A stretch of 64,000 nt of DNA from Isoetes taiwanensis (Eukaryota; Streptophyta; Lycopodiopsida; Isoetales; Isoetaceae). The notes beneath the pieces were generated by a model. That model did no database searches and had not been told where the DNA came from. It saw only the letters and a program-made list of their open reading frames with translations. Shown here one piece after another: positions 1 to 42,183 of this stretch. A program made the translations under genes and the position numbers. Position 1 is the first letter of the stretch. Every line of letters begins with the position of its first letter. The DNA lies in assembly GCA_021234155.1 (NCBI GenBank), contig JAJEKV010000004.1:12030109-12094108 (forward strand). The letters run 5' to 3'.

Positions 1-740
1 TAGTTTCGTAGCATGTCCTCTAAAATCCCGTTGGTCCGCCTCGTCCCGCCATCCGTCTCGAGGATGATATGCCGTGCTCATGGATAGCTTCGCCGGATTG
101 TCGCAAAGAGGTCTTGCCAAAAGGCGCCATGAACTTCGGATCCCCGTCGGAGATGATCTCCCTTGGCATGCCATGAAGCCCTGAAGATCTCTTTGGTGAA
201 GAGCTTTGCTGTGATCCATAGTCAGACTGTGGGTGGTCCCGCAAGGCACAAAATGTGCCATCTTAGACAACTTGTCGCACCACTACCATCAAGGCATCCT
301 TCCTCTTGCCGTCCTTGGGAGTCCCGTGATGAAGTCCATGCCGATTACCTCCCACTTAGCGTTTGGCACCGCTAATGGCTCTAATGCCCCGGGATTCAAG
401 TTGCCCGCCTTCGCCTCATTGGCATAGCCGACATTCCTTGATGTAGCGAGCTATTTGCTTCTTCATTCACGGCCAATAATAGGCCGCAAGACCTTGAAAT
501 ATGTTTTCATGAATCCCGCATGGCCGGCTATTGGGTCAAGCAGCGGTCGTGGAGGATCAACTTCCTTACACCCGATGATTCGTGTACGCACAACTTGTTC
601 TTATGGTATATGATTTCCTTCCTTCTTATAATGCTTGAAGGCCTCCGCTCTTTATCCGTTTCTAGCTTCCTTAGAAAGGCTTGCCCATACTTCCCCGAAA
701 TCCACATCCGCTGGCAAGGACTCTTCAATCCTCTTACCAA
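1..740 (-). pseudogene. Integrase, N-terminal and core, broken and cut by window edge
   Basis: The zinc-binding N-terminal region is seen as HKNKLCV (528-740) and an HAGF/ECRLC-type stretch in a shifted frame around 430-520. The catalytic core appears at 20-244 as LHGMPREIISDGDPKF, where the usual DRD is DGD. Stops and indels are frequent. The element continues left of position 1. Confidence 0.8.
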
Positions 741-861
741 AATCGCGGATATCGCCGAAATTGCGTTTGCAACGCACTCTAGTTGTCGGGGATGCCTTGA
801 AAGCGCGATCCGCTACCACATTGAGCTTCCCCGCTTGTAGACTATATCAAAGTCGTACTCT

Positions 862-2070
862 TCAAGGAACTCCATCCACCTTCTCTCGCCTCGGGTTGAG
901 GTGTGGTTCGCGGAATACATATTGAGGCTCACGGTGGTTCAGATCCAACTGGAACTTCCTTCCCAAAAGGTAGTGCCTCCATATTCTTAATGCCCCGACA
1001 ACCGCAAGCAATTCCTGATCGTGCGTGGGGTAGCGTCCTCTGCCGTCGCTCATCTTCCCGGAATCATACGCTACCACACGCTCTTCTTGCATAAGCACCG
1101 CACTGTAGCTATCTTACTCAAGCGCCTGTTGCTACAAGCTTATCTTTTTCCGGTCCCGGTAGGTTAGGACTGGGGCTGTTGTTAAAGCTTCCTTCAACAA
1201 TTCAAACCCCGCGGGCTTTCTTGTGCCAATGTTCGCGCCCAATCTTTCACTTTCTCCGCGTCCAAGTCCGTTAGCGGGGCTGCTATCTTGGCAAAGTTCT
1301 TTACGAACTTCGTAGTACCGCTAGGCCGAGGAAACTTCCGACTTCATGCACATTCTTCGGCGCCGCCACCGAATCACCGCTTCAATCTTGGCGGGTCCGC
1401 TGAGATGCCTTCGCCGAGATCACATGACCAAGATATTCCACCTTCTGCGATTTGCGGCGGCGGCACTTTGACAACTTGGCATAACCGGTGCCTCTTCAAC
1501 TTCTCTAGCACTCTTCTCAAGTGTTGTATGCGTGCTCTTCAAGGGATCTGCTATACACCAAAATGTCATCAAAGAAAACAATCGAAGGTGTCCAGAACTC
1601 CCTCGAAGATATCGTTCATGAGCCTCATGAACGTTCGCTATGGGGCATTTGATAAGCCCGAAAGGCATTACCGTGAACTCATAATGCCCATACCGCGGCT
1701 CAAGGCGGTCTTATGAATATCTTCTTCCTTTATCCTGATCCGATGATAACCTGACCTTAAGTCGATTTTGAGAAGATCTTTGCACCTTGAAGCCGATCCA
1801 TCAAGTCGTCCGATCTTGGAAGCGCATATTTGTTCTTAATGGTGTGCTTGTTCAACCGCCTATAGTCTATGCACATCCTTAGACTACCATCCTTCTTCTT
1901 AACAAAGAGAATGGGCGCCTCCAAATGGCGTAAACACTAGGTCTAATAAAACCTAGGTCAAGCAGCTCCCAAGAATCGGGTTCTTTAGCTCCCGACAATT
2001 CCCGCGTTGTCATTCTATATGGAGCCTTGCTCGTTGGCTTTGTTCCTGGCTCGAAAGTGCAATCTCGCAC
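862..2070 (-). pseudogene. Reverse transcriptase and RNase H, broken
   Basis: Fragments in successive minus-strand frames match Ty3/gypsy RT: GTKPTSKAPYRMT (1879-2070), MPFGL (1668), and the catalytic FFDD box, which is intact in one frame around 1560-1580. RNase H follows (862-1098) with RYPTHDQELLAVV and RIWRHYLLGRKF. Many one- or two-base indels split the frame. Most amino-acid signatures remain readable, so the decay is moderate. Confidence 0.85.
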
Positions 2071-2236
2071 TCAACTCCCCTATATGGAGGGAGCCGCTTG
2101 ATCTCATCGGAAAGAGATCATGGAATTCCGTGATCAGCTTAGCTACTTGTTTCGCAACTTGTCGAGCACCTTGTCTTCTTTTGCTTCCTTCCGATTCGTG
2201 CTCGCTAATCTCAAGCTTGAAGATGTATGCCACCGC

Positions 2237-2582
2237 TCACTCTTGATGCACTTGAACAGCCGTTTGGAAGACATACATCGCATGATGGGGACAACTTCCT
2301 TTTGTTATCTCAATGATCTTGCCGCCGGGCGTTGGGAAGGTCACTTTCCGCTTCCACACGTCGATAATGGCCCTCGGCCGCCCAAGGTACTCCATTCCTA
2401 TGATCAAGTCGTACTTGCCAATGCCCATTACTTCTGCTCCCATCGGATATTAATCCTCGCAAGTCGATGTCGGTTAATTCTCTTGCCCGTCCCGCCTTTA
2501 CCGCACCACTTGCTAAGACAACGGTCTTGACTTTGACTTTAGCGGCTTCAACTTCAACATTTGAACCATTCCGGGGATGCAA
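2237..2582 (-). pseudogene. Retropepsin-like protease region, broken
   Basis: The frame 2237-2443 contains YDLIIGMEYLGRPRAIIDVWKRK, trimmed here to the signature IIGMEYLG...IIDV that ends Ty3/gypsy proteases. The catalytic DSG-type triad should lie in 2500-2650, where only a degraded FGSDHNF-like stretch is seen in another frame. It is therefore not functional. Confidence 0.7.
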
Positions 2583-2652
2583 AGTTATGGTCGCTTCCCG
2601 AAGTCTATCAAGACTATGAAGGACTTGGCCTTGGCCTTCCCTACCGCGGAAA

Positions 2653-2932
2653 TTACCTTTTATTGGCTCTCTTGCTCAGATCTATTAGTGCAAAGATATG
2701 ACACTCACCCCGAATGTAGTCAAGGGCCTCTTCGCCGTCGTCGTCGGACAGGGCATCCCACTCTCCCAACTCCGCTAGAGCTGCACTCATGACGTAGGGG
2801 CAGTTTGCTGTCCTATGGCCTGGCTGGAAGCACCTGAAGCACAGTTGCTTTTCTATGCATTCCTGCCTCTTTTCCTTGGGCATTGCCTGCAAAAAGGATC
2901 GCACTGCTTTGGAGTAGTTTGACCCCTCGCAT
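2653..2932 (-). pseudogene. gag nucleocapsid zinc knuckle
   Basis: The frame contains CFRCFQPGHRTANC, a C-x2-C-x4-H-x4-C zinc knuckle, preceded by a basic stretch (KEKRQECIEKQL). After it comes an acidic linker (SDDDGEEALDYI) typical between nucleocapsid and protease in this group. It is separated from capsid by the MITE. It binds the element RNA in related retroelements. Confidence 0.85.
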
Positions 2933-2934
2933 TA

Positions 2935-3479
2935 GAGGTAATTTGAGATCTCATTTTGTCCCATTAAGGGATGCTTAAAAAGCCACATCAGCTTTTTAAA
3001 CTGTCCAATAAGAGAAGAGCTCCAGTGTATTTTATTCCAGTATTATGTGGCAGCAGTAATTAATGCAGTTCTAACTAACTTTTGCAGTGTCATCTTTCTA
3101 CTATAACTTTTGATCAAAAACTCCGATTCGAACACTATTTGTGGCAATGGATTCGTCTCCTCAAGATCTTTCTAATGACAACCCATTGTTATATCTTTTG
3201 GGATGCAAATATATAAGAAAAGAGCAAAAAACCATATTTTTTAAGGTTAACACATATGGCTTGTATTGAAATACATCATAACCATATATCACTTGAAAGA
3301 TATTTTCATTCTGCATCTAATGCAACAAACGCCGCAGCATTTTCATGAGTAAATCAAAAGTTATAGGGAAAAAACGACAGCAATGAAGTTGTTAATGCCG
3401 CATTAATTGCAGCTTGATGTAGAGTACTCATTCTATTGGAGGATTCTTATGGGGACAAAAGGAGATCTCAAATTACCTC
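2935..3479. mobile_element. 545 bp MITE inserted in gag (TA target duplication)
   Basis: The ends are inverted repeats of about 33 bp: GAGGTAATTTGAGATCTC at the left and its complement at the right, followed on both sides by TTTTGTCCC-like bases. Dinucleotide TA flanks both sides (2933-2934, 3480-3481). Removing the element and one TA rejoins gag sequence before the zinc knuckle. There is no ORF of note inside. The TA duplication suggests a Tc1/mariner-type mobiliser, but the terminal bases are not the usual Stowaway ones. Confidence 0.8.
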
Positions 3480-3481
3480 TA

Positions 3482-4424
3482 ATGTGCTTGTCCTTGAAGG
3501 ACACCTGCTTCTTCTCCTGCTGTTTGCCTTGGTTCCCACCATATGGGGTTCTAGCTGGACCTGGACTGGCTGCCCTGGGGCTATGGCTTCCTGTGGCCTT
3601 GCCTTTATCCTGGAAATACTGCTGCTTCTGCCCGCTATTCTGAGGTCCCGACCCCTGCAAGCTTATAGCCTTGGATTCCGCTTCTGATACTGTCCTAGGG
3701 TTTATTGCCCTCACAAGCTTATGGATCTCCTCATTCACCCCTCAATATAGCTTTCTCTTTTGCATGCTTCTCTCCTAACTTCGCACATACTGAGCCTTAG
3801 CCTCATGAATTCCTCTGTATATTTTTCGACTGATTTGTTGCCTTGCCGCAACCTCAGAAAACCGCCGTGATCATCTTTGGACTTATGTTCCCTTGGGATA
3901 ATGGCGCTTGAAGGCTTTTGCAAACTTCTTGAACTTACAAGCATCCTGCTCAAGCCGTGTGCCTTTGCATAACCCTTCCACCAAATCCTTTGCGGCTCCT
4001 TTCAAGTTGGTACATTTGCAACTCGCCTTTGTCTTTATCTTTCATGCTATAAGCGTTTAAGGCATTTCGCCATTTCGTCCAGCCCATGCCTCTCGCTTCC
4101 AATCCCGACTGTTCTCCCCCGAGAACATTCCGGTTCCGCCTTCCATACATTGCCCGGTCGCGGAATCTACCTTCTTCCGGTAGTCGAGGCCCCGGTGTCT
4201 CTTTGTCGTTCATCCGGGGTGTTCCTCGCCTTCCATCTGTTCGATTTCGAAATTTTGTTCTTCCTCTTCCTCGAGTCGGAAATCCAGTCCGAGCTTGAGT
4301 CGGAAGATTCCGGCTGGAGGATCTCCTTCTCTTGCTCCTCTTCTTGTCTTTTCTCGCCTTCCGAAGTTGATGCTTGCGGCAACCGAAGCGTTGCCCACCG
4401 AACCCACTCCTGCTCAGCGGACAA
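3482..4424 (-). pseudogene. gag capsid region, broken
   Basis: Minus-strand frames 4167-4424, 3950-4213, 3735-3953 and 3482-3738 give gag-like sequence: an acidic/Ser-rich N-terminus, then a retrotransposon-gag signature around KSVEKYTEEFMRLR, then a Gln/Gly/Lys-rich linker. Several frameshifts break it. Its C-terminal part is cut by the MITE at 2935-3479, and the nucleocapsid zinc knuckle lies beyond that insertion. Confidence 0.75.
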
Positions 4425-5936
4425 GAATGCCTTTTATCCGCCTCCAGTCCGCCCTCATCTGGGCTATCTCCTCCTCCTCGGGGTCATGGGTTCCATATTC
4501 TCAAATAGGTTCCCCGGGGTGGTCTGGGTGGGGTTTGCTCTTCTATAAGATCTCGCAGTTGTCGTTCCCCTGCGTTTAGGCCTCTAGCTGCATGCACAAG
4601 CAATTCATGGTTATATGATTAGTTCCTTTCTTCTCTTGCATTGATTATGCTTGTTGGTATGATTGTGGGGCAAAATACATCAACAAAACATTTAAAGTGC
4701 AATAGGATTTATATTCATATATCATATAATATTTTAGATACAAAAAAAAGTCTCCGGGATCAAGAGTCTGACTATTCTTGAAATTGCCGGTAAGGCGGGT
4801 TGTCCTCGAAACTTCTTTTACTTGGGCTGTACCTCACTTGTACTTCCCAAGTTCCCGAAGTATATCCCAGCATTCCCCCTCGGATGGCGGATGCTAGCTC
4901 TTCCACCCGTCTATGGGAGGTATGAGGCTTATTACGGCCAACCTACCAGTTTGAAGGTGGGGTACCGCTAAGTCGAAGATGCCCAAGGCTGTTTTCCGCT
5001 TCACTAAAATGACATGGTCCACCTTTTTCTCGATAGGCGGCGTGCATGCCAAATCACGAAAGTGCTACAAAGATCTGCATGCTTCCTTCTCCGCGTGGGC
5101 TAAGCGCCAGGAAATATTATTACTCTACCGCCTGTTAGGAGCGGAAGGTAATATTTGAGTGCTGCTCCGGTGCTCTCCACGTGCCCCCTGAGGTGCCCCC
5201 GTGGTGCCTTGATGCATACCGTCCACGGGTACTTGAACTAATTCCTTGTAATCTTGGAAGAGCGCTCAGACACTTGTCGTTTGTGGCTCTCCCTTGGAAT
5301 TTTGCTATCTGTTTTTGTGAGGAAGAAGACTCCCCTTGAAGTACTCTTTGTTGTCTTCCCCCTTATTCCCATCTCTCCTGAAGTGCTATAAACTCCTCCT
5401 CCAGTAGGAAGTTCCTCGACATCATACTTCCGATAGTGCCGTAGCTTCCGATGTCCGGAGATGGTGTGTCCCGTGTAAGTAGTCGCCTCTCGTATTTTGT
5501 ACCGAAAGTCTTAGTTTCTTGGTCGATGAAGTCTTTCTAGATCCGGCTGTTGCCGTAGGGAGGTGAAGGAGTTCATCGACACCGGTAGCCTCCGGCCCCC
5601 GCGATTCGGGGAGGTTTTGATGTCGTTTAGCAAGCAAGTATTCTTGTCCTTCGACTATGACCGGTGCTAGGCTTGTTATTCCCGGCCGATTGGTTGTGCA
5701 ATCCTCGGTGGTGGTCTGTCACTTCAAGGCGGGTGATGTCTTGTTCCGCCTTCCTACGTTCCTCCTCTGGGTCCACCTCTATGTCATCCTCGCTTTCCCG
5801 CCGGAGTCTTCACTCTCTTGGGATGCTTTCGCTATGGTCTCTTCATTATTCAAGCAGGGGCGTTCGTAAAACTCGCTGCGCCCAAGGGTGTGATTTCTAG
5901 AGGCTGAATTGATGGTTCACCTATTACGGTTTCGCC
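4425..5936 (-). other. Gypsy internal region without recognisable gene
   Basis: Only short broken frames are present (for example 5422-5637 on the minus strand). 4620-4745 is AT-rich and could be a terminator for the leader module. From position and strand it is assigned to the retroelement. Confidence 0.4.
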
Positions 5937-6308
5937 CTATATACTAGATATAGCGCTAAAGGTCGTGTTGTAGGAGAAGAAGACTTTGCCATTGCTTGTT
6001 AAGGTCATGTAGGTTGGTAAGCGGTTGGTTCTGTTCCTCAATGCCTTGGCAATATTGGGTACATGATCGAGGGTCGTTTGCAATGCGGTCCTTGGTACAA
6101 AGTACCCTATGCATGGCGGTATCTTCTCGTAAGCTAGGGACAACTTTCTCTTGGAATTCTCGCAGACTTGACGGGCAAGAAAAGGATTGGAGTTCGTGGT
6201 TCTTTGCAAGGTCAAATTCTTTTGAAATACTTGGAATCTTGTATTGACATCTACTTCCGATTGATGTGGGGAGGCGCTATACCAACCGATGAAGGCTTCA
6301 GTAGCCAT
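5937..6308 (-). CDS. Unrecognised 123-residue ORF in the gypsy leader
   Basis: The ORF starts MATEAFIGWYSASPHQ and runs uninterrupted to a stop at 5937. I see no signal peptide, membrane segment or known motif. The start is supported by a TATA box 113 bp upstream and an ATGGCT context. It is the second hairpin/TATA/ORF module on the same strand. Sequence to about 5420 stays partly open in shifted frames, so the original protein may have been longer. It could be an accessory gene of the retroelement or a captured host exon; I cannot decide. Confidence 0.45.
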   Translation of the reverse strand: MATEAFIGWYSASPHQSEVDVNTRFQVFQKNLTLQRTTNSNPFLARQVCENSKRKLSLAYEKIPPCIGYFVPRTALQTTLDHVPNIAKALRNRTNRLPTYMTLTSNGKVFFSYNTTFSAISSI

Positions 6309-6420
6309 GGCTTAAGAGCGTCTTTGCCGATGTCAAACTAAACCGAAGCGCCGGTGAAGCTGAAAGATCGCCTCAATTGCGTGAGCGATTCGTGGGGTTG
6401 AGGCTTGGGGTTGTGGGGGA

Positions 6421-6428
6421 TATATATA
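6421..6428 (-). promoter_or_regulatory. TATA box of second leader module
   Basis: The minus strand reads CCCTATATATATCCCCC about 113 bp before the ATG at 6308, preceded by AAACCCTAAAAAT and, further up, AAATCGACCAAA. This copies the arrangement before the ORF at 8018. Confidence 0.55.
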
Positions 6429-6608
6429 GGGAATTTATGCCCTAAAATTTTTAGGGTTTCTAAAAAGTCCGACATTTGGGATGAGGCTAATGTTTCTTGG
6501 TTAATTTGAGGCTCAAAGTGGCTTGCCTATAGTCTTAGGGTTCTAATGCAACAAATTTTGGTCGATTTGGGTATGTCTAGCTCAAGTTATGAACTTGGGA
6601 AGTTCTAA

Positions 6609-6682
6609 GGCTCTAAGAGTGCTTGTGGGAGGGGTGTTAGGTTGGGACCTAACTAGGCTCTGGCGCACTCTTGGAGTCACCG
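6609..6682 (-). repeat. Fourth copy of the gypsy leader hairpin
   Basis: The same imperfect palindrome as the array at 8241-8741 (inner GTTAGGTTGGGACCTAAC, outer CTCTAAGAGTGC and GCGCACTCTTGGAG). It lies upstream, on the minus strand, of a TATA box (6421-6428) and an ORF starting at 6308. The same order, hairpin then TATA then ORF, occurs in the 8 kb module, suggesting that a promoter module was duplicated. Confidence 0.8.
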
Positions 6683-6854
6683 GTGAAATTACTCCAATTG
6701 TTGCCAAAAGTAATACTGTGCCTAATGAATATACACTCTTAAACAACTATATATTTTATTATTCAAAATTTTTGTACATCAGATATAATCCTGTTAGTTA
6801 CAAAAAGTTAATTTCCCGTCTATCAGTCCCTCCGCTTGATGTACTTAGCCAGCC

Positions 6855-7715
6855 TCATATCCTTTGGCTCAGCGGGGTGACTCTTTTTCCATGGAGAGTG
6901 CATGCTAATGAATCTTCAAAGTGCTGTACAACCTCCATCTCTCGCTTGCTTCTTGTAAAAGTAACATGTCGTTGGTTACCGCTTGTTGGGGTCGAACTCC
7001 CACAAAATTTCTCGGACAAACCTGGAATGAATGCCCTCGGAATGAGGAACTGTGAGCTCCTTTGAAGTGCTTGATTTCCCGCAAGGCTCGCAAAAGGGGA
7101 GTCTTGGGATCTCTTCATAGGCTTCTTGGGGGTTAGAGGCAGCTCTGCGGGGTTTGAGCTGGAATGCTTCCGAAGTTGGCCTCCCTCCTTCACGCTTTGA
7201 CCTTGTTTTCTTCGTAGGTAAGTGCGTAGTCTTCGCGGCATCTTCTTGTATATTTTGTAATCTGCTAGCTTTTTCTTGTACCTCCTCTCTCGGTCCTAAG
7301 GTGTACGAGTCTCGGGAAGGTTTTGGTTGCTTTCTTCCTGCCTGCCTTCTCGCCGCATCTAGCTTCTTTGCTTCTTGCCATACCGAATGGTGGGGAACTT
7401 GGCGGGGGTAAGTTAATCTGTGTTTCAGGCTGTGCTTGGAGTTGGGATCGGCTCTTCCTCGGCGGATTTCCTCTGTTTGAGGGTTGAGGGTTAAGCTGCT
7501 GCTTTGTGAGGATTCTCCGTTCAGAAGGGTTGCCTCCAAGAATCTTTGCTATATCGCCGATCTCCTCCGACGAGGTTGGGGATCGTTCGCCTTCCGGTTG
7601 GCTCGTTTATAGATCGCCCGTAGGGTTCTTCTCTTCTTTTTGGGGTTCTTGGGTCATTACCCTTTTTTCCTTTGGGGTCGGGGTCCTCTCTGTTCTTAGT
7701 TCTTTGTTCCGCCAT
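6855..7715 (-). pseudogene. Decayed ORFs following the H3-like ORF (gag-leader-like)
   Basis: Overlapping open frames (7521-7715, 6976-7539, 6855-7241) carry one Lys/Arg/Pro/Ser-rich protein broken by frameshifts. Most of it looks disordered. Near the end are RFVRE and LHGKRVTPLSQRI, which loosely resemble the plant transposon-associated domain found in Athila-type elements (FVREFY... RGKRV-type motifs). That family link is weak. The segment continues the H3-like ORF on the same strand and may once have been one protein with it. AT-rich sequence near 6720-6800 could hold the poly(A) signals of this unit. Confidence 0.4.
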
Positions 7716-7724
7716 TGGTGGTCT

Positions 7725-8018
7725 TCAGTTACGCAACCTCCTCTTACATACATTCTCGCTTTCTCCTCCTTCCTCTTGGCTCGTTCTTCTCTTCTTCTTG
7801 CCTTTTCCTCTTTCTTCTTGGCCTTTTCTTCTTTCCTCTTTGCCTTTTCTTCTTTCCTCCTCCCTCCTCCAAATTCTGTAATACCTAGGCCGCCTCTCCA
7901 TGTCGACCTTCCGGTTTTTCGTCGGCATCTTTGAGCTTACGTTGGTTTTGCGAAAGCACTTGGTATTTGGGCCTACCTTCTTTCTTTGGGCTTGGGCGGT
8001 TTGTTTGGTCCTAGCCAT
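7725..8018 (-). CDS. Small basic protein with histone H3-like N-terminus (MARTKQTA)
   Basis: A 97-residue ORF with a good plant start context (ATGGCT). After the initiator Met the first seven residues ARTKQTA equal residues 1-7 of histone H3. The sequence then diverges (QAQRKK instead of RKSTGG). Residues 12-45 are rich in Lys and Arg. Residues 48-85 are repeats of the type EERRKGKEERRKGQ, probably helical and nucleic-acid binding. No known fold is visible. It lies about 0.9 kb inside the 5' LTR, behind the hairpin array and a TATA-like box, so it belongs to the gypsy element as an accessory or leader protein. Mimicry of the H3 tail to reach chromatin readers is inference. Chance similarity of a short basic stretch is the alternative. 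Confidence 0.6.
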   Translation of the reverse strand: MARTKQTAQAQRKKVGPNTKCFRKTNVSSKMPTKNRKVDMERRPRYYRIWRREEERRKGKEERRKGQEERGKGKKKRRTSQEEGGESENVCKRRLRN

Positions 8019-8122
8019 TGTACGACAAATACCGATTTGGGAGCAGGCCAAAAGATCGGCTAATGAGAAGGAGCTCGTGGGAACCACGGGAGAAACCTAA
8101 AAAATGAGCTTATGTCCCAGTA

Positions 8123-8130
8123 ATTTATAG
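8123..8130 (-). promoter_or_regulatory. TATA-like box before the H3-tail-like ORF
   Basis: The minus strand reads CCCTATAAATTAC about 105 bp before the ATG at 8018. Just upstream are AACCCTAAAAAT (telo-box-like) and AAATCGACCAAA, both also found before the TATA box of the neighbouring module. Promoter activity is inferred from motif spacing. Confidence 0.5.
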
Positions 8131-8240
8131 GGTTGGATTTTTAGGGTTTGGTCGATTTAGCCTTGTGGTGGTTTTGCTTGGCAAAAGTCTCCCCTGTCTT
8201 GGGCGAAATTGGGGTCTTGTTTGGTCTTTGCTTCTTGAAT

Positions 8241-8741
8241 GGCTCTAAAGTCTTGCGGGGAGGGGGGTGTGTTAGGTTGGGACCTAACTAGGCTCGGGCG
8301 CACTCTTTGAGTCGCCGGCCTTCTTCGCCCAACGCACCCAATTTACACAATTTACATCTTTGTTACTCCCTAATTTAAGCATTTTAAGCAGGATCCTATC
8401 ATTACTTTGACCCTTTTTATTAATTTACGTTTAATTTTAAGGGTCACTTTTGGGGATGACTCTAAGAGTCTTGGAGGGAGGGGTGTTAGGTTGGGACCTA
8501 ACTATGCTCAAGCACTCTTGGAGTCGCTGTTCCAAAAGTGACTTGTACTTAATGTTTTTCGATGTTTTAACATACAATTCTAGCTATTTCGAACTCCTTT
8601 GATCGGGATTTCATCTTTTATCTTACCATTTGGAGTTCCTAAGGTCAAGTTCTAGGGTTTATATGGGGTGACGACTCTAAGAGTGCGCGAAAGGGCCATT
8701 AGGTCTGAACCTAACATGCTCCGGGCGCACTCTTGGAGTCA
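8241..8741 (-). repeat. Three hairpin-bearing tandem repeats in the gypsy leader
   Basis: Three copies (about 8241-8316, 8457-8526, 8673-8741) have centres at roughly 214 bp spacing. Each has outer arms like GACTCTAAGAGTGCG and CGCACTCTTGGAGTC and an inner pair GTTAGGTT/GACCTAAC, so each can fold into a long stem. The copies lie between the primer site and the first ORF, where packaging or translation signals of retroelements usually sit. A fourth copy is at 6609-6682. Function is not known. Confidence 0.8.
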
Positions 8742-8928
8742 CTGGCCAAAAGTGCTATTTCGATTGTTTATTCTATCCTACCTGTGTTCTCTACTTATCT
8801 TAATCTTAGATAATTACTATCTCTACCCCGGGAAAAAAATTTTCCCGCTACTCGAGGTTTGAGGGTCCTATCAAGTTAGTACTACTGGGAGCATGGTCAG
8901 TGCTTTGCTCTTGGTCTCCAAGAACATT

Positions 8929-8940
8929 GCTCTGATACCA
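8929..8940 (-). promoter_or_regulatory. Primer binding site (initiator tRNA-Met)
   Basis: On the minus strand the bases read TGGTATCAGAGC, complementary to the 3' end of plant initiator tRNA-Met. It sits one base inside the 5' LTR, the standard place where minus-strand DNA synthesis is primed. Confidence 0.9.
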
Positions 8941-8941
8941 C

Positions 8942-10607
8942 TGTGACGTCCCCTACTCGCATACGGTGCACTCACCGTACACAAACAGGAGTTCATCCCC
9001 CATACCAGCTCCATGCTAATACAGGGCCCTCCACATAACACTGCAACCGTGACGGGTTCCAGTGGGAAGAGTGGAAGGGTCATTGCACCCCGTCTCCCTC
9101 AGGGCCTACCTAGCTGCGGAAGCGTAAACATACATGTCAGTAGCACATACATCAATATCATATGACCATCACGAAGGATGGTCCTCCACATATCTGCATA
9201 GACAAAGATCAGCACATCACATAGGGAATCCTACCCAAGGCTCAGACTCAAGGGATGATGGACGGACTTGGGTCTCTCGAGTTCATTGCGCATGTAATTC
9301 ATGGCAATGGATTTGGCTGGCATATGAACATAGCTTAGGGTGGTCCACTCCATCCGCCCCTCCTGTGCACACTTTGCAGAGTGGTCTGAAAAGTGTCGGG
9401 ACCTGACTGTAGCCCGCCGGATGCATAGCCAAGAGGGCTACTCCTGGGCTCATCCTCCCAGTTCCGATGGGGCAGGTAGGGATCACTCCCTCCAGAGATC
9501 TACATGCTGACTCAAGGTGACTAGAGGGCCACTGCCCGTGATTCCGTGAACCCATCGGAAAGTGAACACCACTTCACGGGTGTCGAGCCCATGCCTGCCC
9601 ACACGCAGCGGGCAAGCCATTGGACCTAGTCGCAATGATCCCCGTAGGCTTTTTACACACCGTAGGGATCGCTCATGAGTCGGGACATGAACCTCCTTCT
9701 CTGCCCGGCCCGGCCCCTTCACCCACATCCCGGTGTGGCTCTTGTGCACAGGCCGAATCTACAGTGTGCTAGAGAGGCTACTCTAGGAGCATCAACTACA
9801 AAGCTTTAGGTCTCTACCCCCCTTCCCAATACAAGGAGTTCATAGAGATACATCATCCATATACATCACAGAAGAACTAAAGAACAAGATCTAACCTACA
9901 ACATAGGGTTAGGTTCTTTAGTTAGAATCTGCTATCTAGAGATCTGAATGGCCAATCTAATAGGCTAAACCTACTGATTCAATGACTAAAATAGGGTTTA
10001 GACTATCTAATTGGCCAAATACCTGATCCTTGAGAGGCTCCCCCTGATCTGAGCTCGACCATCCTGCTGAAACGCTCGAATCTAGAGAAACTAAGGATGC
10101 AACTCTCCTAATCCGAGTCTGGGATGCGGTTTTGGCTGTTGAGGCAGCCAAAACAGAGTCCTGAAGCCCTAAAATCGAAAATTGGGCTAGTTAGGGTTTC
10201 CTACCCTAAATAGACAAGGGAGTTGGCTAGGGTTTCCAATTATCCCCTTTTGGCATGTGGGATAATTGGAGCATGGGCCCACTTGCCTTTAAGGGCTAGG
10301 TGGCCAAATGTGCACACATGGAAATGTGTGCCCACATTAATGTGTACATTGGAAAATGTGCACATTAATTGCACCTATGGGTGTGGCCCACTTGGCATGA
10401 AGTGTCCACTTGGAAATGTGTGCCCACATTAATGTGTACATTGGAAAATGTGCACATTAATAGTTGCACATATTTCTGGCAAGTTGCCCCCTAGGCTACT
10501 CACCTGGCTAGCACGCCAGCGCGTCACGCCACCGGAGTGGGCGGTACGCATGACGAGGCAAAGACGGTATACGCCCCGGGGTCAGATAATCGCGGCCGAA
10601 CGTCACA
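8942..10607 (-). repeat. 5' LTR of the gypsy element (1666 bp)
   Basis: Read on the plus strand the segment begins TGTGACGT and ends ACGTCACA, the short inverted termini (TG...CA) expected of an LTR. The inner edge lies one base from a tRNA-Met primer site, and the outer edge cuts LINE coding sequence. The second LTR is outside the window, so direct LTR-LTR comparison is not possible here. The ends are called from the terminal inverted bases and the LINE junction. Confidence 0.8.
10319..10461. repeat. 51 bp direct repeat inside the LTR
   Basis: Two identical 51 bp copies, 10319-10369 and 10411-10461, lie 41 bp apart. Each begins TGGAAATGTGTGCCCACATT. The unit is rich in short inverted words (TGTGCACA-like). 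It sits in the upstream (U3-side) part of the minus-oriented LTR, where retroelement enhancers often occur. A regulatory role is inference only. Confidence 0.85.
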
Positions 10608-11033
10608 ATTGAGAGCATAGTTGATGAAGTTCCAGTGGACAGTATCAAATGCTTTCGAGAAATCCAACTTAAGGAGAACACAGTTTTGGCCAGAATGCTT
10701 ATTCCAGTGGAGACCCTCAACAACAGCAATATAATTATCTAAAATATATCTATTTGGGAGAAATGCTGACTGAGAGGGATTGATAACTTTTTGGAGGTAG
10801 CTCTTAATCCTATTGGCAATGATTTTAGCACACACTTTATAAGAAGTATTGGTCAAAGAGATTGGTCTCCAATCAGTGAAAGTTGAGGGATCCTCTTTCT
10901 TAGGAATCAGAGAAATAAGCCCAGCTGAAATAGCAGGATGCAGATGATTGGAGTTCCAAAAACCATGGATCATTCTAGAGAAATCAACTGGAAAATATCC
11001 CAAAATGAATGTAGAAATCTGGTTGGAAGCCAT
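10608..11033 (-). pseudogene. LINE ORF2 reverse transcriptase, truncated
   Basis: The frame holds DWRPISLTN, ANRIK, QSAFLPNR and LLKLDFSKAFDTVHW, which are RT motifs 1 to A of plant LINEs including the first catalytic Asp. It ends in LTR sequence of the gypsy element after FINYAL. Motif C and the C-terminal zinc domain are outside the window. Confidence 0.85.
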
Positions 11034-11115
11034 CGGGGACTGTGGCTTTTCCCTTTGGCAAGAGAAGATAAGATTCTAAAAATTTCCTCAACACTAGGCG
11101 TGATTGGAAAGATTA

Positions 11116-12483
11116 TCATTCATGGTTTCGGTCTCCTCTGTTGCCGATTAATTGGGATATTTTGGACCATATCATAGAAGATATTAGCCCATCGACAAAG
11201 ATTGGGAAGAAAGGATTGTTGAGAAAAAGCTCAAAGATACTTGGAGTTGAAGAACCTTGAGATTTCAAGCAGTGATTTACAAGACTAGAATTGTCATCTG
11301 CAGTGACTTTGGTGATGCTGGATTTGAGCAGCTTGTTTTTGGCAACCCTGAAGAAAAATTTTGAATTGCCCTTGTCTAGATTGGCATGATATTTTAGTTT
11401 GCAAGATATAGCAGCACCTTTAGCTTCAAATTCTTCAATCACTTTTATAGAGTTTTCCAGATTCCCTTCCAAGATATGAAGATTAGGATTTAAGGGGTCA
11501 TTTTGAAGCTGCATCCTCACATTCTTAATATTCTGCAAGTATTTATTTTTTTCAGCATTCTTCTGAGTGAGATGATTTTTAGCCCATTTCTTAATCCAAT
11601 CTTTTGCAGCCTTGACATTGGCATAGAATTCTTTCATTGTGGAGGAATTGTTTAGGCTGACTCTTGGAAGATTAGAATAGAAGGATATGAAATCAGAACA
11701 AAAGGCCTCAGATTTTAGAAGAGAGCAATTGAATTTGAATGGAATATTGCCCTGTCTTTTTGGAGAGATCTCGTGCCTAATGGTTAAAAATTGGGGCTGA
11801 TGGTCTGAGATGGAGGTACACTCATCACTGGTTACAAGACAGTTATCCCAGAAGCCATTGGTCAGATTAGTGATATAGAATCTATCAAGAGCACAAAAAA
11901 CTCTCTTGTTGCCTTCTTGCTTATTACTCCAGGTGAATTTAGCAGTAGATGAAGGAATGTGGTGCAGAAGATGGTTATCAATAAGATTATCCCAAGAAGT
12001 CTTTTCATTAGAGGATAAATTTAATTGTTTCCCAACCTTTAAGTCCCAAGATGGGGTATTGTTAAAATCTCCCCCTAAAATCCAGGTCGAAATAGCTTGA
12101 TTTTGCAACCACCTGTTTATAGACTGCCATTGTGAATCTCTCTCCCTGGAGTCAGTTGAAGCATAAATATTTATAATACCAAAATCATTACCAGCAGAGG
12201 AGAAGGTGACAGCTTGCCATCTGTTACATGGACTATTGAAAATGGACGAGTGTTTGATATTATTCCATATAATACATAAGCCACCCGAGGTACCAGTGGC
12301 TTCAATCCAGATAGATGCACTCCCTGGGGAAATCCAGTCAGCCAAATTTGAACATTCAAATTGAGGCAATCTCAATTCTTGGAGCATGATTATGTCAGCA
12401 TTATAATGCTTGATTTGTGCTATTGTTCTTCTCCTTTTAAGAGGCCCTTTAATGCCTCTTAAATTCCAAGACAAAATCTTCAT
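11116..12483 (-). CDS. LINE ORF2: AP-like endonuclease and linker
   Basis: 455 residues starting MKILSWNLRG. The endonuclease signature is complete: SWNLRG (5-10), catalytic LQEL (34-37), GGDFN (137-141) and SDHQP (226-230). It nicks the target DNA to prime reverse transcription. Residues 250-440 are the linker before RT. The frame is lost at about 11116, and RT goes on in another frame. Confidence 0.85.
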   Translation of the reverse strand: MKILSWNLRGIKGPLKRRRTIAQIKHYNADIIMLQELRLPQFECSNLADWISPGSASIWIEATGTSGGLCIIWNNIKHSSIFNSPCNRWQAVTFSSAGNDFGIINIYASTDSRERDSQWQSINRWLQNQAISTWILGGDFNNTPSWDLKVGKQLNLSSNEKTSWDNLIDNHLLHHIPSSTAKFTWSNKQEGNKRVFCALDRFYITNLTNGFWDNCLVTSDECTSISDHQPQFLTIRHEISPKRQGNIPFKFNCSLLKSEAFCSDFISFYSNLPRVSLNNSSTMKEFYANVKAAKDWIKKWAKNHLTQKNAEKNKYLQNIKNVRMQLQNDPLNPNLHILEGNLENSIKVIEEFEAKGAAISCKLKYHANLDKGNSKFFFRVAKNKLLKSSITKVTADDNSSLVNHCLKSQGSSTPSIFELFLNNPFFPIFVDGLISSMIWSKISQLIGNRGDRNHE

Positions 12484-12514
12484 GGCAAGGGTCTAAGAGC
12501 AAGAACAGTTGAGC

Positions 12515-14203
12515 TTAATGATTTCTCAATTTTTTTTTTTGTCTAGTATTGGCTGCAGGAGTTTCAGATGAGGCTTGACCTTTCTTATGCTTTGTCTTTT
12601 TTCCCCCCTTATATTTCTCTGACCTAGAGGAGTTGGATTTATCAATCATATTATCAGAGGGGTTTTGGAGAAATGAGTCATCTTCCCAATTGACTACATT
12701 GAAGGTATTGGGATCAGAGTTTTCCTTTAAGTCAATGAGATCAGCTGAAGAATGTTGACACTCCCAAAACTTAGATTTACAACACTCAGGATTTAATAAA
12801 GGACTAGAAATGAAATTATCTGGAGTAAGAGGGACTTGCCTGGAAGAGAGTTGCTCCAATTCCTTATTGTTTGAGTTCTGCTTTTGATTCTCTTGGCCTA
12901 GTAGAACTTGCATATTACTGACCTCTGGATTATTTTCAGATTCTGCTCTGGGACCATTTCCATTTATTTTGAGAAAATCTTGGCTCAAATCCTCTTTGTT
13001 ACATAATTTACCTATGTCTCCATCTCCTTCTGTATAAACCCCTTTTTTGCTGACTGTATTTTCAGTTTGCTTGATATTCTGTTTTCCAAGATCCCTATTT
13101 TCTGGTAAATTTTCTTGTGAATCCATAACCACCAAAGAATTCAATGACATGTCATGTTGAAGATCTGCCAGCTGGTTTGCAATGACTGGGGAAAGACCAC
13201 CAAATTTATCTGGAAGTGGTGGCTGAGTATCAATATTTGGAGAGAGGTCAATGAGATCAGGTTCATTGGGGGCTAGGTTTGTATGATTTAAAGATGAAGG
13301 GACAAAGGTAATTGGCTCCAATGTGTCTGCACAAAAATCTTCAGGTAAATCAGTTAGAATGTTAAAAGTATTAGAGCAGATAACCTTTGAAGCAGAATTA
13401 TCAGAAGAGGTGTCTTTAGAAGAGTTGGCGTCCATCTCCTGAAGTACTGGTGAGGAAATAACTCGAGTTGGTGATGCTGAAGAAATAGAGGCTATGATTT
13501 TTTCATTGGCCTGCTTAAATTCCCTGTTTGCTTCAGTATAACTCATATCCTTCAGTTTGGGGCCAATAGGCTCAGTTTCTCTATTTTGCTCAGTATTTTC
13601 AATATGTATAATTAATGGAACCTCATTTCCATTGATTATTGATTTGTTTGCTTTGACTGAATTCTTGTCTCTGCAATTTCTGTCAATAATACCATTGATG
13701 TCATGCTTGTCATGAAGCTTCCTTTTATCATTTGCATTTGTTTTCAAGGCTGAATGTATAACAATTCCTTTGTTATACTGTTTATTCTGCAGCTTATTGG
13801 CAGCAATGTCCTTACTAGATTTCATAATAGCACTCAAAGTATTATTGAGGTCCACTGTGCTGTGTGTCATGGGAGCCTTTCCCTTTAGAAGAACTCTGTC
13901 TTGAATTTTGTCTTGTTTTGACCTTTCTTCTTGAAACTGATCTTGCAGTGAATTTTTCTGAATGGAAGCTTTACTTTTATTGAATGTATCCATGTTGCCT
14001 CTGATTAAGACATTCACTTTGGCAATAGGCTGAGATAAACTTGAGAATCTAGATAGAGATGAAAATCCAGATAGTTGGCTCCCAGTTTGAACATGGTCAG
14101 CTGCCATTTTTGATTGAGCCATATCTCTTTTCTTTTGTATTCTTCTGTAACTACCATTGGTATTCCAGGAGCTGATTTTTTCCCATTTGTTATCCACATT
14201 CAA
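12515..14203 (-). CDS. LINE ORF1, C-terminal part (long low-complexity tail)
   Basis: About 560 codons open, in a frame offset by one from ORF1. The first in-frame ATG is about 14122; the frame is open a little further up, past the ORF1 stop. The protein is Asn/Ser/Lys/Glu-rich with no domain and ends in a very basic stretch (KGGKKTKHKKGQ). The size and position suggest it is the tail of ORF1, separated by one frameshift or by programmed shifting near 14200-14225. It ends 31 bp before the ORF2 start. Confidence 0.6.
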   Translation of the reverse strand: MNVDNKWEKISSWNTNGSYRRIQKKRDMAQSKMAADHVQTGSQLSGFSSLSRFSSLSQPIAKVNVLIRGNMDTFNKSKASIQKNSLQDQFQEERSKQDKIQDRVLLKGKAPMTHSTVDLNNTLSAIMKSSKDIAANKLQNKQYNKGIVIHSALKTNANDKRKLHDKHDINGIIDRNCRDKNSVKANKSIINGNEVPLIIHIENTEQNRETEPIGPKLKDMSYTEANREFKQANEKIIASISSASPTRVISSPVLQEMDANSSKDTSSDNSASKVICSNTFNILTDLPEDFCADTLEPITFVPSSLNHTNLAPNEPDLIDLSPNIDTQPPLPDKFGGLSPVIANQLADLQHDMSLNSLVVMDSQENLPENRDLGKQNIKQTENTVSKKGVYTEGDGDIGKLCNKEDLSQDFLKINGNGPRAESENNPEVSNMQVLLGQENQKQNSNNKELEQLSSRQVPLTPDNFISSPLLNPECCKSKFWECQHSSADLIDLKENSDPNTFNVVNWEDDSFLQNPSDNMIDKSNSSRSEKYKGGKKTKHKKGQASSETPAANTRQKKKLRNH

Positions 14204-15315
14204 ATTATGTTTACCTTTTCGACGGGTTCCCGAACTTTAAACCCCCTGCTTGATGAGTCAGGAGCAGATCCCCGCTTTCCATTTTCTGATGAGCTTGCTT
14301 TTCCTGAATAGTCTGAGCATTTTGAGCAAGATAGATGCCTACAATTACAATTATGGCAGAAATTTGGTAGGCCAACCCATCTTAATTGAATAGAAGCATT
14401 AGAGCCAAAGAAGTCAATGAAAGGAATTGAGGTGGGGATTGGCTTGGAGAAGTAAACTTGCACATAGCATCTTGGAGGCTGAGTTGAAAAGAATTCAGTT
14501 GCTATGTATGTTCCAATAGAATTGAAAATTTTTGAGAAACATTCTTCATGCCAGTAGATAGGACTCAGATCATTCATTTGAACATGAGCAATACATAGTT
14601 TTTCAAAGTCAGAAAGAGAGAGCTTGGGAGTCCATTTGAGAAAATGCAGTTGAAAGGTATCACAGGTGACTCGACCAGTTTTAAGAAGGAAATCAGCAGT
14701 TCTGGAGGAGCCAGCCTCAATCATGATGTAAGGGAAATTAAGCCAGAATATAGAGTTAATGACAATTCCTTTATGAAGTCTAAGCAACTGATCCCATAAT
14801 CTCTCAATTTTGAGTCCAACTTTATCCACCCTAACCAAAACAGCAGTATTTTGTAGGGATTGAATTCTAGAAGCTATAACATTGGAGTGAAGATCAATAC
14901 CTTTGAATGAAAGAACTGATGGCGGTATTTGAGCTTTCATATTTTCCAAATGATTTGCCAGTTCTTGATCAGAGAGAATTTCTTGTGTTGGCCTAGGAGG
15001 TCCAGTTCTGATGGGAATGCCGTTTGCATCAAGAGATGGGACGCCATTATAGCCTGGATCTTTGGAGAGGTCATCCCAGATTGGAGTGGATCTATCAAGA
15101 TGATGCATTCCTTTGGATTGCAAACCTGGGTCAGAGAAATCCCCAAATTTTATGAAAGAAGAGGGTTGCTCATGGAGTTTACCTAACTGTGAAAGCAGCT
15201 CGGCTCGATCACTGGCGGACAGGAGCATAAACTTGTGAATGAACGAAATGGAACTGGTGTTTAGGGATTTTGCAGGGGGAAATTTTATTTTTTTGGGAAT
15301 TTCAGCCGGAGCCAT
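14200..15315 (-). CDS. LINE ORF1, N-terminal part (nucleic-acid binding)
   Basis: 371 residues starting MAPAEIPKK. Residues about 150-330 have the spacing of the DUF4283-type domain of plant LINE ORF1 proteins, ending in WVGLPN. A Cys/His cluster CHNCNCRHLSCSKC follows, close to a C-x2-C-x4-H-x4-C knuckle but shifted by one residue. The tail is basic. The frame ends at TGA (14202-14200), where the next open frame overlaps. It probably coats the LINE RNA with the downstream half. Confidence 0.75.
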   Translation of the reverse strand: MAPAEIPKKIKFPPAKSLNTSSISFIHKFMLLSASDRAELLSQLGKLHEQPSSFIKFGDFSDPGLQSKGMHHLDRSTPIWDDLSKDPGYNGVPSLDANGIPIRTGPPRPTQEILSDQELANHLENMKAQIPPSVLSFKGIDLHSNVIASRIQSLQNTAVLVRVDKVGLKIERLWDQLLRLHKGIVINSIFWLNFPYIMIEAGSSRTADFLLKTGRVTCDTFQLHFLKWTPKLSLSDFEKLCIAHVQMNDLSPIYWHEECFSKIFNSIGTYIATEFFSTQPPRCYVQVYFSKPIPTSIPFIDFFGSNASIQLRWVGLPNFCHNCNCRHLSCSKCSDYSGKASSSENGKRGSAPDSSSRGFKVREPVEKVNII

Positions 15316-15498
15316 TTAAAGTTTGAAAGAATGCAGGGGAAACCAACAAGAGGGAACGAGAAAAAGAAGGATAAATGGAAAATGGAGGGTAACTGTTACA
15401 GAGGGAAAAGAAGCAAAGCAGAGATGCTAACTATCAATTAGAAGGATCGAAATACCAAAGATTTGCCATAAATTGCAAAAAAGGCACAGAATTGAAAT

Positions 15499-17671
15499 TC
15501 ATTGCTCAGAGTAAACTTTCACTATTATCTTTTCCTCCATCCAATCACAATTGACTCTAAAGATACCTGTTGCCGATTTGTGCTTGCTGCCAACGAATTC
15601 CTCTAACCAAGAATCAAGCATTTGGACTTCAAATTCTGTGCAACTCGGAACAAAGGAGTATTCTTTCTGGAAAAGATGATCTGGAAACCACTGATCTACA
15701 ATTAAGGAGTTCCACAATTCAGATGGTGAGCCCCTAAGAAAACCACATGTAAATCTTGCACCCTGTTTGACAATTGCAAAGATTTTAGTTTCCATAGAAA
15801 GCTAGAATTTAGATGAATCCGAATTTGCTGACCCTCTACAGGGCCAGCTAGTAGATCCCCCTGAAATCTCTGTCAAACTGGAATCAATTCAGAGATGGAG
15901 GTCGAAATTCTGCCAAGAAATGATTTGTAACAGAAAAGGAGGGAAAAGACAAATAAAACAAGATTTTAGGCGCACGTCCCCCATTTATGCATGCTAAGTT
16001 ATCATTATAAGCTAGTTTTCAAATGATGAAATTTACAGTGCAATTGATCGTACATTAACTTCATCTTTGATTTGTGCATAAACAATGGACATTGACATAT
16101 TTAACACACATCAAATGTTTAAGTTGTCAAGGTTTAACTTCAACTATTGCAATGTGAAAGTGTAGAGTTGGGGCATATGGGGATATAGAAACAGTAAACA
16201 GATGTTTCAAAATAGAAACTCGAAATTGTGAAAGTGTTCTGCTCTGTAATTTTCATCTAGCTAAGAAACCCTTTGCTGACCATTTTGGGATCCCCCAATA
16301 AGTTACTGCAGTATGTGTAGCAACATGTCAGCTCATTCTCCATCAATTTGGGTAGAATAAGTGCCAATACATGGTTATTATGAACATTTTCTACCTAGTA
16401 CATAGGAGCACTTATTTGCATTATGTACCAGTACTTGCGCAAAGGATTTGATGACCCTTGTCTTGGCATATATACCCGCGAGTTTAACAGAAGAATCACA
16501 AGCATTCATATAAGGCATGCTCCATATTCTGAAAATCTGTTACACCAAGCATTACTCATAGTCTTGACTAAAAGAGTTTTATGTTATCGGATACAGCACA
16601 CACGACCTTATACTTACAAAAGCAAATAGATCTGATAACCCACGAGCAGGATAAAAGCAATGATCATTTTGAAAAATCTGAGCTGCAAGAAGACGGATTA
16701 TGTAAGAGCGCTTTAAAACAACGCTCTTAAGCCAGCCTACCAAACTTTCTCAATGCTTCTCTTGGCCTGCCATTAGTAGATGATAAATAAATAGTCGTAG
16801 CATTCCGTAGGTCTTTCATTCATGCAGATGTTAACATATGCAGTTTAGTTAACCTGCAATGTGTAAGATAATATACAGGGAGGACCAATTCTTACTTGCG
16901 TGATACAAATGACTAATTCTTACTTGCATGATGCAAATGATTTATTCTGGAACACAACATCCTATTTTATAAAATTCATGATATGATGCACAGAATAGAC
17001 ATCTATAAGTAACAAATGGCATGACAGAGAGCAAAATAGCATGCAGAAAAATATCAATAGCAAATATTTTACGTGTCTTAACTCAAGCCAATATGATTCC
17101 ACCATCACTCATATAAGAAACGTTTGATAGATACCTATGAGAATAAAACTTCCAGGATCAAATCCAATCATTCCCTTTCCATTGGCATCTTGACATACGG
17201 CAAGACCTGCAAGACAACAAAGAGTGCATTATTCATAGCATGTAGAGAACGAATTTAAATACCTGTCCCTATGCTTAGGGGCATAAAAGCAATGCATGAA
17301 CTTCAGAGAACTAAAACAGTAAAGCTACTTATAAAACAGAACATTTGAGATGAATGCAAATTGATATGAGGCACCTCTAGAAAATGTTCATTCGCATAAC
17401 AATGCTCTATATGTTGTTGCAGATCCTAACCTGGCCAACCTCATCCATAGCCATTATCAACATAGCCAGGCTTCTGAGACTTCTGAGATTCACTGTAAGG
17501 AACTAAAGAACAAAAGAACATGAGCTATTTGTTACCTGGAAAAGCAAGCGGTTTGCAGTCGCCCAGATCTGTGGCAAATAGCAGAGCTTGTATTTGTATA
17601 GTACCCAGGGCAAAATCCGATTCTGCTGGGTGTGCACATCCCCCAAGTTCCAGCCAGAACCTTTCCAAAAG
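15499..17671 (-). CDS. Split gene of unknown function (four phased exons)
   Basis: Minus-strand exons 17671-17536, 17206-17135, 16682-16618 and 15801-15499 each have AG acceptors and GT donors and join in one open frame of about 190 residues ending at a stop at 15499. Landmarks: FWLELGGCAHPAESDF in exon 1, GMIGFDPGSF in exon 2, NDHCFYPARGLSDLF in exon 3, CGFLRGSPSELWNSL and GIFRVNCDW in exon 4. The fit of all phases argues for a real gene. The first coding exon is not found; it may be upstream of 17671 or lost. I do not recognise the family. The last exon is clearly related to the ORF at 45308-45652 (ungapped match around CGF/CGW and GIFRV/GIFKV). The last exon alone could instead be read as an upstream ORF of the adjoining LINE. 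Confidence 0.55.
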
Positions 17672-32696: not shown

Positions 32697-33075
32697 AACA
32701 TGCAGGATTTGAACCTGCATTCCTACGTTCTAGTGCTTGTACAATAGAAGGATGCTGATCATTGTGACTATATGATTCCCACTATGTAGTTCCATTTATT
32801 ATTTTAACCATGTCACGCAATGATAACCAATGGGTTTTGAACCTAGGCGGGGCACACCCGTATCCAATGGTCTAACCACTCGATTATGATCACCGTGAAT
32901 AGAGATCATTCACGCCATCCAATGATAGCCAGTGGGATTTGAGCTTGGGCGGGGCACACCCGTAACCAATAGCCTAACCACTAGACTATCACTGCGATAA
33001 GCTTTTCTTCCAAACTGCATGTAAGGGGAATCATATAGTAACCATATATAGCATACCATCTATTGCACGGGCTTG
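32697..33075 (-). repeat. tRNA-like dimeric repeat (SINE-like), left copy
   Basis: The minus strand shows two tRNA-like units, 32821-32894 and 32921-32994. Each has an A-box-like TAGTGGTTAG stretch, GGGTGTGCCCCG in the anticodon-arm position and a B-box-like word (AGGTTCAAACCC; AGCTCAAATCCC). The second closes with pairing ends AGTGATAG and CTATCATT. A third T-arm, GCAGGTTCAAATCCTGC, is at 32705-32721. They are not functional tRNAs. A copy with about 85-90 percent identity by eye lies at 38985-39318. Confidence 0.65.
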
Positions 33076-33091
33076 GAGGATATGTACATAT

Positions 33092-33096
33092 ATATG
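33092..33096. other. Target site duplication ATATG (left)
   Basis: ATATG precedes the copia left LTR and is repeated at 38930-38934 after the right LTR. Confidence 0.9.
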
Positions 33097-33802: not shown

Positions 33803-33803
33803 T

Positions 33804-33816
33804 TGGTATCAGAGCC
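33804..33816 (+). promoter_or_regulatory. Copia primer binding site
   Basis: TGGTATCAGAGCC, complementary to initiator tRNA-Met, one base after the 5' LTR. Confidence 0.95.
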
Positions 33817-33834
33817 AGGTTGGCTTAAGGAACA

Positions 33835-34551: not shown

Positions 34552-34572
34552 AAGAGGAGGCAGTTCCAGGCT

Positions 34573-37447: not shown

Positions 37448-37448
37448 T

Positions 37449-38160: not shown

Positions 38161-38166
38161 TACATG

Positions 38167-38175
38167 AAGGGGGAA
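38167..38175 (+). promoter_or_regulatory. Copia polypurine tract
   Basis: AAGGGGGAA directly before the 3' LTR, the primer for plus-strand DNA synthesis. Confidence 0.9.
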
Positions 38176-42177: not shown

Positions 42178-42183
42178 AGTGTA

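Follow-up and report, generated by a model that had tools for sequence, protein, structure and literature searches.

Ty3/gypsy Retrotransposons of Isoetes taiwanensis Carry a Histone H3-Family Gene ahead of gag

Introduction

Core histones are usually viewed as a property of the host, some DNA viruses aside. The closest described cases are the single histones of DNA viruses or virus-derived systems, namely H4 in bracoviruses, H3 in xenomaviruses and H2B in pandoraviruses; according to the available part of the source, these are likely host-derived, often have a longer tail, and are thought to enter host nucleosomes (PMC9145170). They resemble the case described here in that one histone resides in a mobile or viral genome, and differ from it in that the carrier here is a multi-copy LTR retrotransposon. 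The main text of the same article, as far as available, contains neither "retrotransposon" nor "retrovir" (0 occurrences each).

LTR retrotransposons with captured genes, described in rice and sorghum (PMC3726574) and in bdelloid rotifers (PMC5408684), likewise have a host or foreign ORF added. In the accessible portions of these articles, chromatin terms are over-represented among the captured sorghum genes (PMC3726574), and the added rotifer ORFs are env-like, esterase, exonuclease and dUTPase (PMC5408684). The available main text of the former article contains "histone" 0 times, as does that of a review on gene capture (PMC13317346).

Plant chromoviruses share with the elements described below the LTRs, an initiator-Met-type primer binding site (PBS), gag, protease, reverse transcriptase (RT), RNase H, integrase and a chromodomain. 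Unlike plant chromoviruses, the present elements have two extra ORFs ahead of gag, the first of which encodes a histone H3, and hairpin units before each. The Selaginella element SM-Tcn1 consists of gag and pol only, according to the part of the article available (PMC2864245). The main texts of PMC8566536 and PMC10541799, again as available, hold 0 occurrences of "histone", and the I. taiwanensis repeat library of the former could hide elements of this kind. Among the titles and abstract beginnings examined, which covered the top-ranked part of broad queries and largely the literature outside subscription, none described a histone encoded by a retrotransposon.

Here we analyze a 64,000-nucleotide stretch of I. 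taiwanensis DNA (contig JAJEKV010000004.1, positions 12,030,109–12,094,108), hereafter the window, together with related loci in the same genome. Coordinates without a locus name refer to the window.

Results

The Reported ORF Begins a Decayed H3-Family Gene

An earlier inspection of the letters alone (the sequence-only reading) had drawn attention to an ORF at 8018–7725 on the minus strand. As that reading stated, the ORF is initiated by ATG, encodes 97 residues (MARTKQTAQAQRKK... from 8018) and begins with MARTKQTA, residues 2–8 being equal to H3 residues 1–7. The rest had been described as unlike H3, which is correct for the ORF's own reading frame only; downstream, an H3 fold is found in other frames.

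When the ORF1 of an open relative (locus L009, see below) was used as a tblastn query, its residues 1–393 spanned 8018–6826 in several frames. This decayed gene of about 400 codons (ORF1; 6826–8018, minus strand) comprises a start, a long tail and a histone fold. By translation, the open frame at 7725–8018 (minus strand) accounts for the MARTKQTA start together with a portion of the tail. The sequence is strongly basic close to the start, and a 21-bp tandem repeat inside ORF1 (7770–7859, minus strand) codes for a K/E/R-rich stretch of the tail. The histone fold (6835–7087, minus strand), recognized by tblastn, by a frameshift-tolerant alignment and by a PDB search, covers H3.1 positions 48–132 (Met = 1) in shifted frames.

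The three best places of an H3 tblastn search over the whole 64-kb window (7214–6858, 7215–6835 and 8018–7944; E = 0.018, 0.024 and 0.81) all lie at the ORF1 locus, on the minus strand. Frameshift-tolerant alignment of the H3 core scored 140 at this locus, and the runner-up among 106 segments of both strands scored 46. For comparison, dinucleotide-shuffled versions of the segment (n = 300) gave a mean of 34.8 (sd 5.4, maximum 69), shuffled H3 queries (n = 300) reached at most 54 on the ORF1 segment, and H4, H2B and H2A queries scored 38, 31 and 45, respectively. The unaltered stop-free piece 6858–7295 matched eight PDB sequences at E ≤ 10, all eight belonging to the H3/CENP-A family (best E = 0.11); the piece 6908–7114 gave zero PDB matches. 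A single-frame Pfam search of the window copy found no strong domain behind the ORF, missing the H3 fold, which runs across several frames.

Given the H3 fold downstream in the locus, the reported ORF forms the beginning of a decayed H3-family gene whose other end lies near 6826. This histone H3-family gene is encoded by the element, and what had been noticed is the 5' end of a copy now dead. The idea of an H3-like tail mounted on an unrelated protein must accordingly be abandoned, since the gene encodes a member of the H3 family whose tail is very long. Searches with the 97-residue ORF against phages, bacterial and archaeal genomes and viral contigs returned no relative.

Architecture of the Element in the Window

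The ORF had also been assigned to the strand of a gypsy element, and this is borne out by an exact PBS at 8940–8929, by gag and RNase H pieces, and by collinear matches to other copies (ORF1 8018–6826, ORF2 6308–4787, gag 4521–2531 and pol 2790–3). All parts of the element lie on the minus strand.

The 5' LTR (TGTGACGTTCG...GGGACGTCACA, 8942–10607) sits in a LINE reverse transcriptase ORF. Its inner end is indicated by the motif adjoining the PBS and by an alignment, reaching 9830–9930, with the L013 LTR and the upstream part of L014; its outer end is inferred from a two-mismatch motif, matches to which are no commoner than chance, and from a break in the RVT_1 frame of the LINE. The LINE itself (10527–15315, minus strand; DUF4283, endonuclease and reverse transcriptase) is apparently interrupted by the LTR at about 10607. 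The PBS (TGGTATCAGAGC, an exact match at 8929–8940), which we take to be of the initiator Met tRNA type, lies 911 nt upstream of the ORF1 ATG.

Repeat analysis and folding identified hairpin units 1, 2 and 3 of the leader (8668–8752, 8450–8535 and 8232–8325) and a further unit ahead of ORF2 (6600–6690). These are four imperfect palindromes of about 75 bp, with fold z-scores of -2.9 to -5.5; L013 has three such units ahead of ORF1 and two behind. The leaders of ORF1 and ORF2 thus have the hairpin unit in common, and their likeness beyond it is weak (9 of 500 shuffles were as good). The units are possibly an RNA signal or a promoter module; positions 1–16000 of the window matched zero Rfam families.

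The decayed ORF2 (4787–6308) was recognized by its match to open relatives. It is followed by gag (2531–4521), with capsid, CCHC knuckle and the start of the protease, and by pol (3–2790), with protease, RT, RNase H and integrase, which continues past the window edge. Pfam searches of the element strand detected gag (E = 3.1e-4, below the Pfam cut-off), the CCHC knuckle, the protease and RNase H (8.7e-17). The window DNA stops within the integrase, ahead of the position of a chromodomain.

Elsewhere in the window, the stretch 32725–39326 contains repeats (32725–33802 and 38176–39326) that are about 92–93% identical and an exact PBS at 33804; we presume it to be a Copia-like element. The minus-strand ORFs at 40563–45157 resemble a Helitron-type helicase.

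Open Relatives in the Genome

The genome searched comprises 1,658,258,908 bases in 1,110 contigs. The 97-residue ORF gave at least 97 matches at E ≤ 1e-3 (150 scored of 275 candidates), and 20 loci of 10 kb were taken from the genome matches for close reading. We call the window's group A; group B is a second group with another N-terminal domain.

Two loci, L009 and L010, have open ORF1s of 394 residues, which start with MARTKQTARK and MARTKHTARK, respectively, and have an H3 fold at the C-terminal end (Pfam Histone, E = 5.6e-22 and 2.1e-22). A third long open ORF1, of 392 residues (L013), has a partly altered fold, its Histone match (1e-5) falling just below the curated cut-off. Against the PDB, the best match of L009 ORF1 had E = 8.5e-20, and among the matches listed (60 of 174) all were histone H3 or H3 variants. 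The open copy at L010:6316–7500 has MARTKHTA in place of MARTKQTA; plant CENH3, too, has MARTKH.

In its general layout, group A ORF1 starts with an N-terminus identical to H3 residues 1–8, frequently as far as K9, continues as a charged tail about 290 residues long and finishes with an H3-type fold at the C-terminus. The Pfam Histone match in L009 begins at residue 292, as against a tail of about 40 residues in ordinary H3, and the L009 tail has neither S10 nor the word ARKS. Canonical plant H3 thus has the fold type and residues 1–8 in common with group A, but differs in that group A has some 290 residues ahead of a fold that is identical at 45–46 of 95–96 positions, and in that group B bears an extra N-terminal domain.

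Relatives of the element carry the ORF at the same place, a check that the earlier note had proposed. On one strand, L010 shows the order PBS, ORF1, ORF2, gag and pol pieces, and an exact PBS precedes ORF1 at a similar spacing in 8 of 12 scanned group A loci (L010, L013, L014, L015, L016, L017, L023 and L028). L013 has LTRs at 1–1561 and 8176–9735 (93.0% identity over 1,585 columns), a PBS at 1558, ORF1 at 2501–3679 and a perfect 5-bp target-site duplication, ACGGT, at both ends; it is apparently internally deleted, its alignment to the window skipping from 6393 to 2250 (the ORF2–gag part). L018 starts with MARTKQTARK and has LTRs at 1–1528 and 7674–9197, without a long open ORF1. Its pol includes RT (5e-38), RNase H and integrase, and L014 has a Retrotrans_gag match (3.7e-16). 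The chromovirus hallmark, a chromodomain after the integrase, was found in L018 (6737–6946; PF00385, E = 2.3e-9), where the frame to the integrase is broken; the L013 stretch checked for a chromodomain gave no match.

The Ty3/gypsy hallmarks (paired LTRs, PBS, target-site duplication, gag, and the order PR–RT–RNase H–INT) are hence all present, distributed among different copies. As none of the 10-kb loci contains every part, the full plan is a purely descriptive composite of several copies. Elements with an H3-family ORF1 between the PBS and gag form a large Ty3/gypsy group in this genome. ORF2, situated between the histone ORF and gag, is open in two relatives (503 and 506 residues, MATESF...; L014:4387–5907 and L028:4382–5893) and gave no domain or structure match in Pfam and the PDB. 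A match of ORF2 to RSC8 was rejected as being at chance level.

A protein encoded alongside gag–pol (L010) and alongside a chromodomain (L018), and strongly basic near its start, might serve packaging or integration, by coating the cDNA or pre-integration complex or by steering it to chromatin assembly sites via H3 chaperones. To our knowledge, standard chromoviruses manage integration without any such protein, which argues against this role and leads us to regard it as improbable.

Conservation of the N-Terminus and Core Motifs

At 28 loci, two of which are repeats of the same place, we compared 26 distinct copies of group A, all picked by their match to the reported ORF. MARTKQTA is present in 22 of the 26 (exceptions L002, L006, L010 and L020), and MARTK in 25. 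ARTKQTA is thus retained among copies and the sequence behind it diverges, the outcome for which the sequence-only reading had suggested looking.

Genome-wide, DNA that could encode MARTKQTA occurs at 2,079 places (host H3 genes included) and a reversed control pattern at 0, so the match is not due to chance. The first 100 places listed use 44 different encodings and have Arg2 in 100 of 100, although the pattern permitted Ser. Among these 100, 29 are paired with an exact H3-core motif 1012–1281 nt downstream on the same strand (control pairs, 0), 2 are paired at the canonical spacing of 327 nt, and the remaining 69 lack an exact core motif at either distance. The core motifs themselves could be encoded at 2,001 (LCAIHAKRVT) and 1,257 places (ACTxHAKRVT) in the genome, host genes included, with 0 for the controls. 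Viewed from the motif side on the same contigs, MARTKQTA is the partner of 26 of 50 ACTxHAKRVT and of 5 of 90 LCAIHAKRVT motifs, two of these five being canonical; the other 85 of the 90 LCAIHAKRVT listed have no exact MARTKQTA at the ORF1 or canonical distance.

Twelve further places with other encodings (L046–L057) have tails that are mostly unrelated beyond about residue 10. At residues outside the search pattern, R8 is found in 12 of 12, K9 in 8 of 12 (the other four have V or I) and S10 in 0 of 12; farther downstream, 7 of the 12 places have an exact core word. The open frames of these copies all end early, so they look decayed.

Many N-terminal H3 readers have a footprint of about residues 1–8, and the conserved N-terminus of group A would seem to end about where this footprint ends.

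A Second Histone-Bearing Group

A genome search with Pfam Histone yielded 8,705 first-look candidates, from elements and other sources together; 150 were scored, all above the cut-off. The first 15 scored rows have the canonical H3 form, and many others lie in long open frames of up to 494 codons. Ten group B loci (L029–L037 and L040), selected for long frames, were fetched. In all ten, the C-terminal core is near-canonical, 79–85 of 96 residues being identical to host H3, and five group B ORF1s gave Pfam Histone matches with E from 2.9e-41 to 1.1e-43.

MARTKQTA begins none of the nine group B ORFs with a readable start among these ten loci, the nearest being MARTKGTK in L037. An N-terminal domain of about 200 residues (IPYPIFHFNERFL...) precedes the H3 core instead (L029, L032, L034, L035 and L037); it matched nothing above the cut-off in Pfam. 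Since group B keeps the H3 fold without the MARTKQTA start, the general feature is the H3 fold and not the exact tail. The survival of an H3 tail segment in the group B linker was considered and rejected, as the scores were no better than those of shuffles.

The flanks of two group B loci (L041–L042 and L043) contain a further ORF and a protease, with gag in L041, and so group B members are also retroelements. On contig C1037, an LTR pair (11864391 and 11872903) encloses a Histone match at 11867710. A scan of five group B loci revealed no exact PBS, and the likeness of the group B second ORF (L041) to ORF2 is marginal (best E = 0.015).

Selection on ORF1 and Its Bearing on Function

Pairwise dN/dS ratios (Nei–Gojobori) of open ORFs, a selection that excludes stops and not replacement changes, were about 0.1 overall, with smaller values in the fold; several of the dS estimates, being above 1, are imprecise. 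In group A (four ORFs, six pairs; L011 ends early and L014 begins at an internal Met), the ratios were 0.09–0.18 overall and 0.00–0.10 in the fold. In group B1 (five ORFs, ten pairs, one saturated), they were 0.06–0.18 and 0.01–0.08. The pair L032–L034 gave 0.09 overall and 0.01 in the fold; for L035–L037 the fold alone was measurable (0.04).

These data bear on two alternatives. A seven-residue match in a single window could be luck, or a host H3 pseudogene might have fallen into one element; such explanations, to which we attach virtually no probability, are refuted by the thousands of motif copies, the paired LTRs, the fixed position ahead of ORF2 and gag, and the purifying selection. The other alternative is a soluble decoy, in which the tail and fold of ORF1 would tie up H3 readers, methyltransferases or chaperones and thereby dampen silencing, with no need to enter nucleosomes. 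Conservation of residues 1–8, the reader footprint, ahead of a diverging tail is consistent with this, and EZHIP, an H3 K27M-like inhibitor protein, offers a precedent (PMC6513997, in the part available). A peptide-like decoy, though, needs no histone fold, yet the fold is under the strongest constraint and is near-canonical in group B; we therefore consider a decoy unlikely.

H3 or CENH3 Ancestry

Group A cores, with 45–46 of 95–96 residues identical to host H3, sit on a very long branch in the tree. They contain CENH3-like words (EIRHFQ or EIKHFQ, and LIPRA), and FastTree joined them with two plant CENH3s at a local support of 0.967 (0.322 with Arabidopsis CENH3 alone). IQ-TREE, applied to 21 sequences with identical rows dropped, likewise placed group A with CENH3 (bootstrap 84 and 63). 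Such features would suit a CENH3-like protein with a part in targeting or building centromeric chromatin. On the same set, however, a topology with CENH3/CENP-A together and group A on the H3 side was not rejected (AU p = 0.177), and loop 1 of group A has the length of H3 in the alignment, a longer loop 1 being expected of CENH3. Moreover, the window copy scores best with H3.1 (140 versus 122, 115 and 118 for CENH3/CENP-A queries), and the trees set a very long branch against CENH3 sequences other than the host's own. Group A may have a CENH3-like origin, towards which the trees lean; a CENH3-like role in centromeric chromatin appears quite improbable.

Host H3 branches inside the set of group B cores, weakly supported, so that either a single capture or more than one may have taken place.

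Discussion

The reading we favor, at only just short of an even chance, is that the ORF1 protein is an H3 variant that would enter chromatin together with H4 and alter the silencing of element chromatin. While the elements were active, the protein would have paired with host H4 like any H3 and entered nucleosomes. There it would have presented an authentic H3 N-terminus (A1, R2, K4, R8 and often K9) to host readers and writers, and the altered tail (no S10 and, in L009, no ARKS word) would change the silencing of ORF1-bearing chromatin. The likeliest use, in our view, would be anti-silencing at the element's own chromatin.

Because the fold is the most constrained part, H4 partnership and nucleosome entry are the simplest reading, and the presence of a chromodomain in the same elements makes a role in the element's chromatin state plausible. 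Conversely, the divergence of the group A folds (45–46 of 95–96) means that assembly with H4 is not assured, the trees tend to group these folds with plant CENH3 instead of canonical H3, and the protein could act off chromatin. Moreover, showing a free H3 N-terminus cannot serve as the function common to all these elements, since group B is without the MARTKQTA start.

More tentatively, an active retrotransposon lineage may have made its own H3 variants, placed them in host nucleosomes with either the N-terminus of native H3 or a substitute N-terminal domain, and thereby written its own chromatin state at its copies. The chance of such a histone code, encoded by retroelements, maintained by selection and surviving in thousands of copies, is one that we would put somewhat below even.

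In this vascular plant, core histone H3 belongs to the conserved accessory genes of retrotransposons. Whether a mobile element can gain protection or targeting from a nucleosome subunit that it provides itself thereby becomes directly testable.
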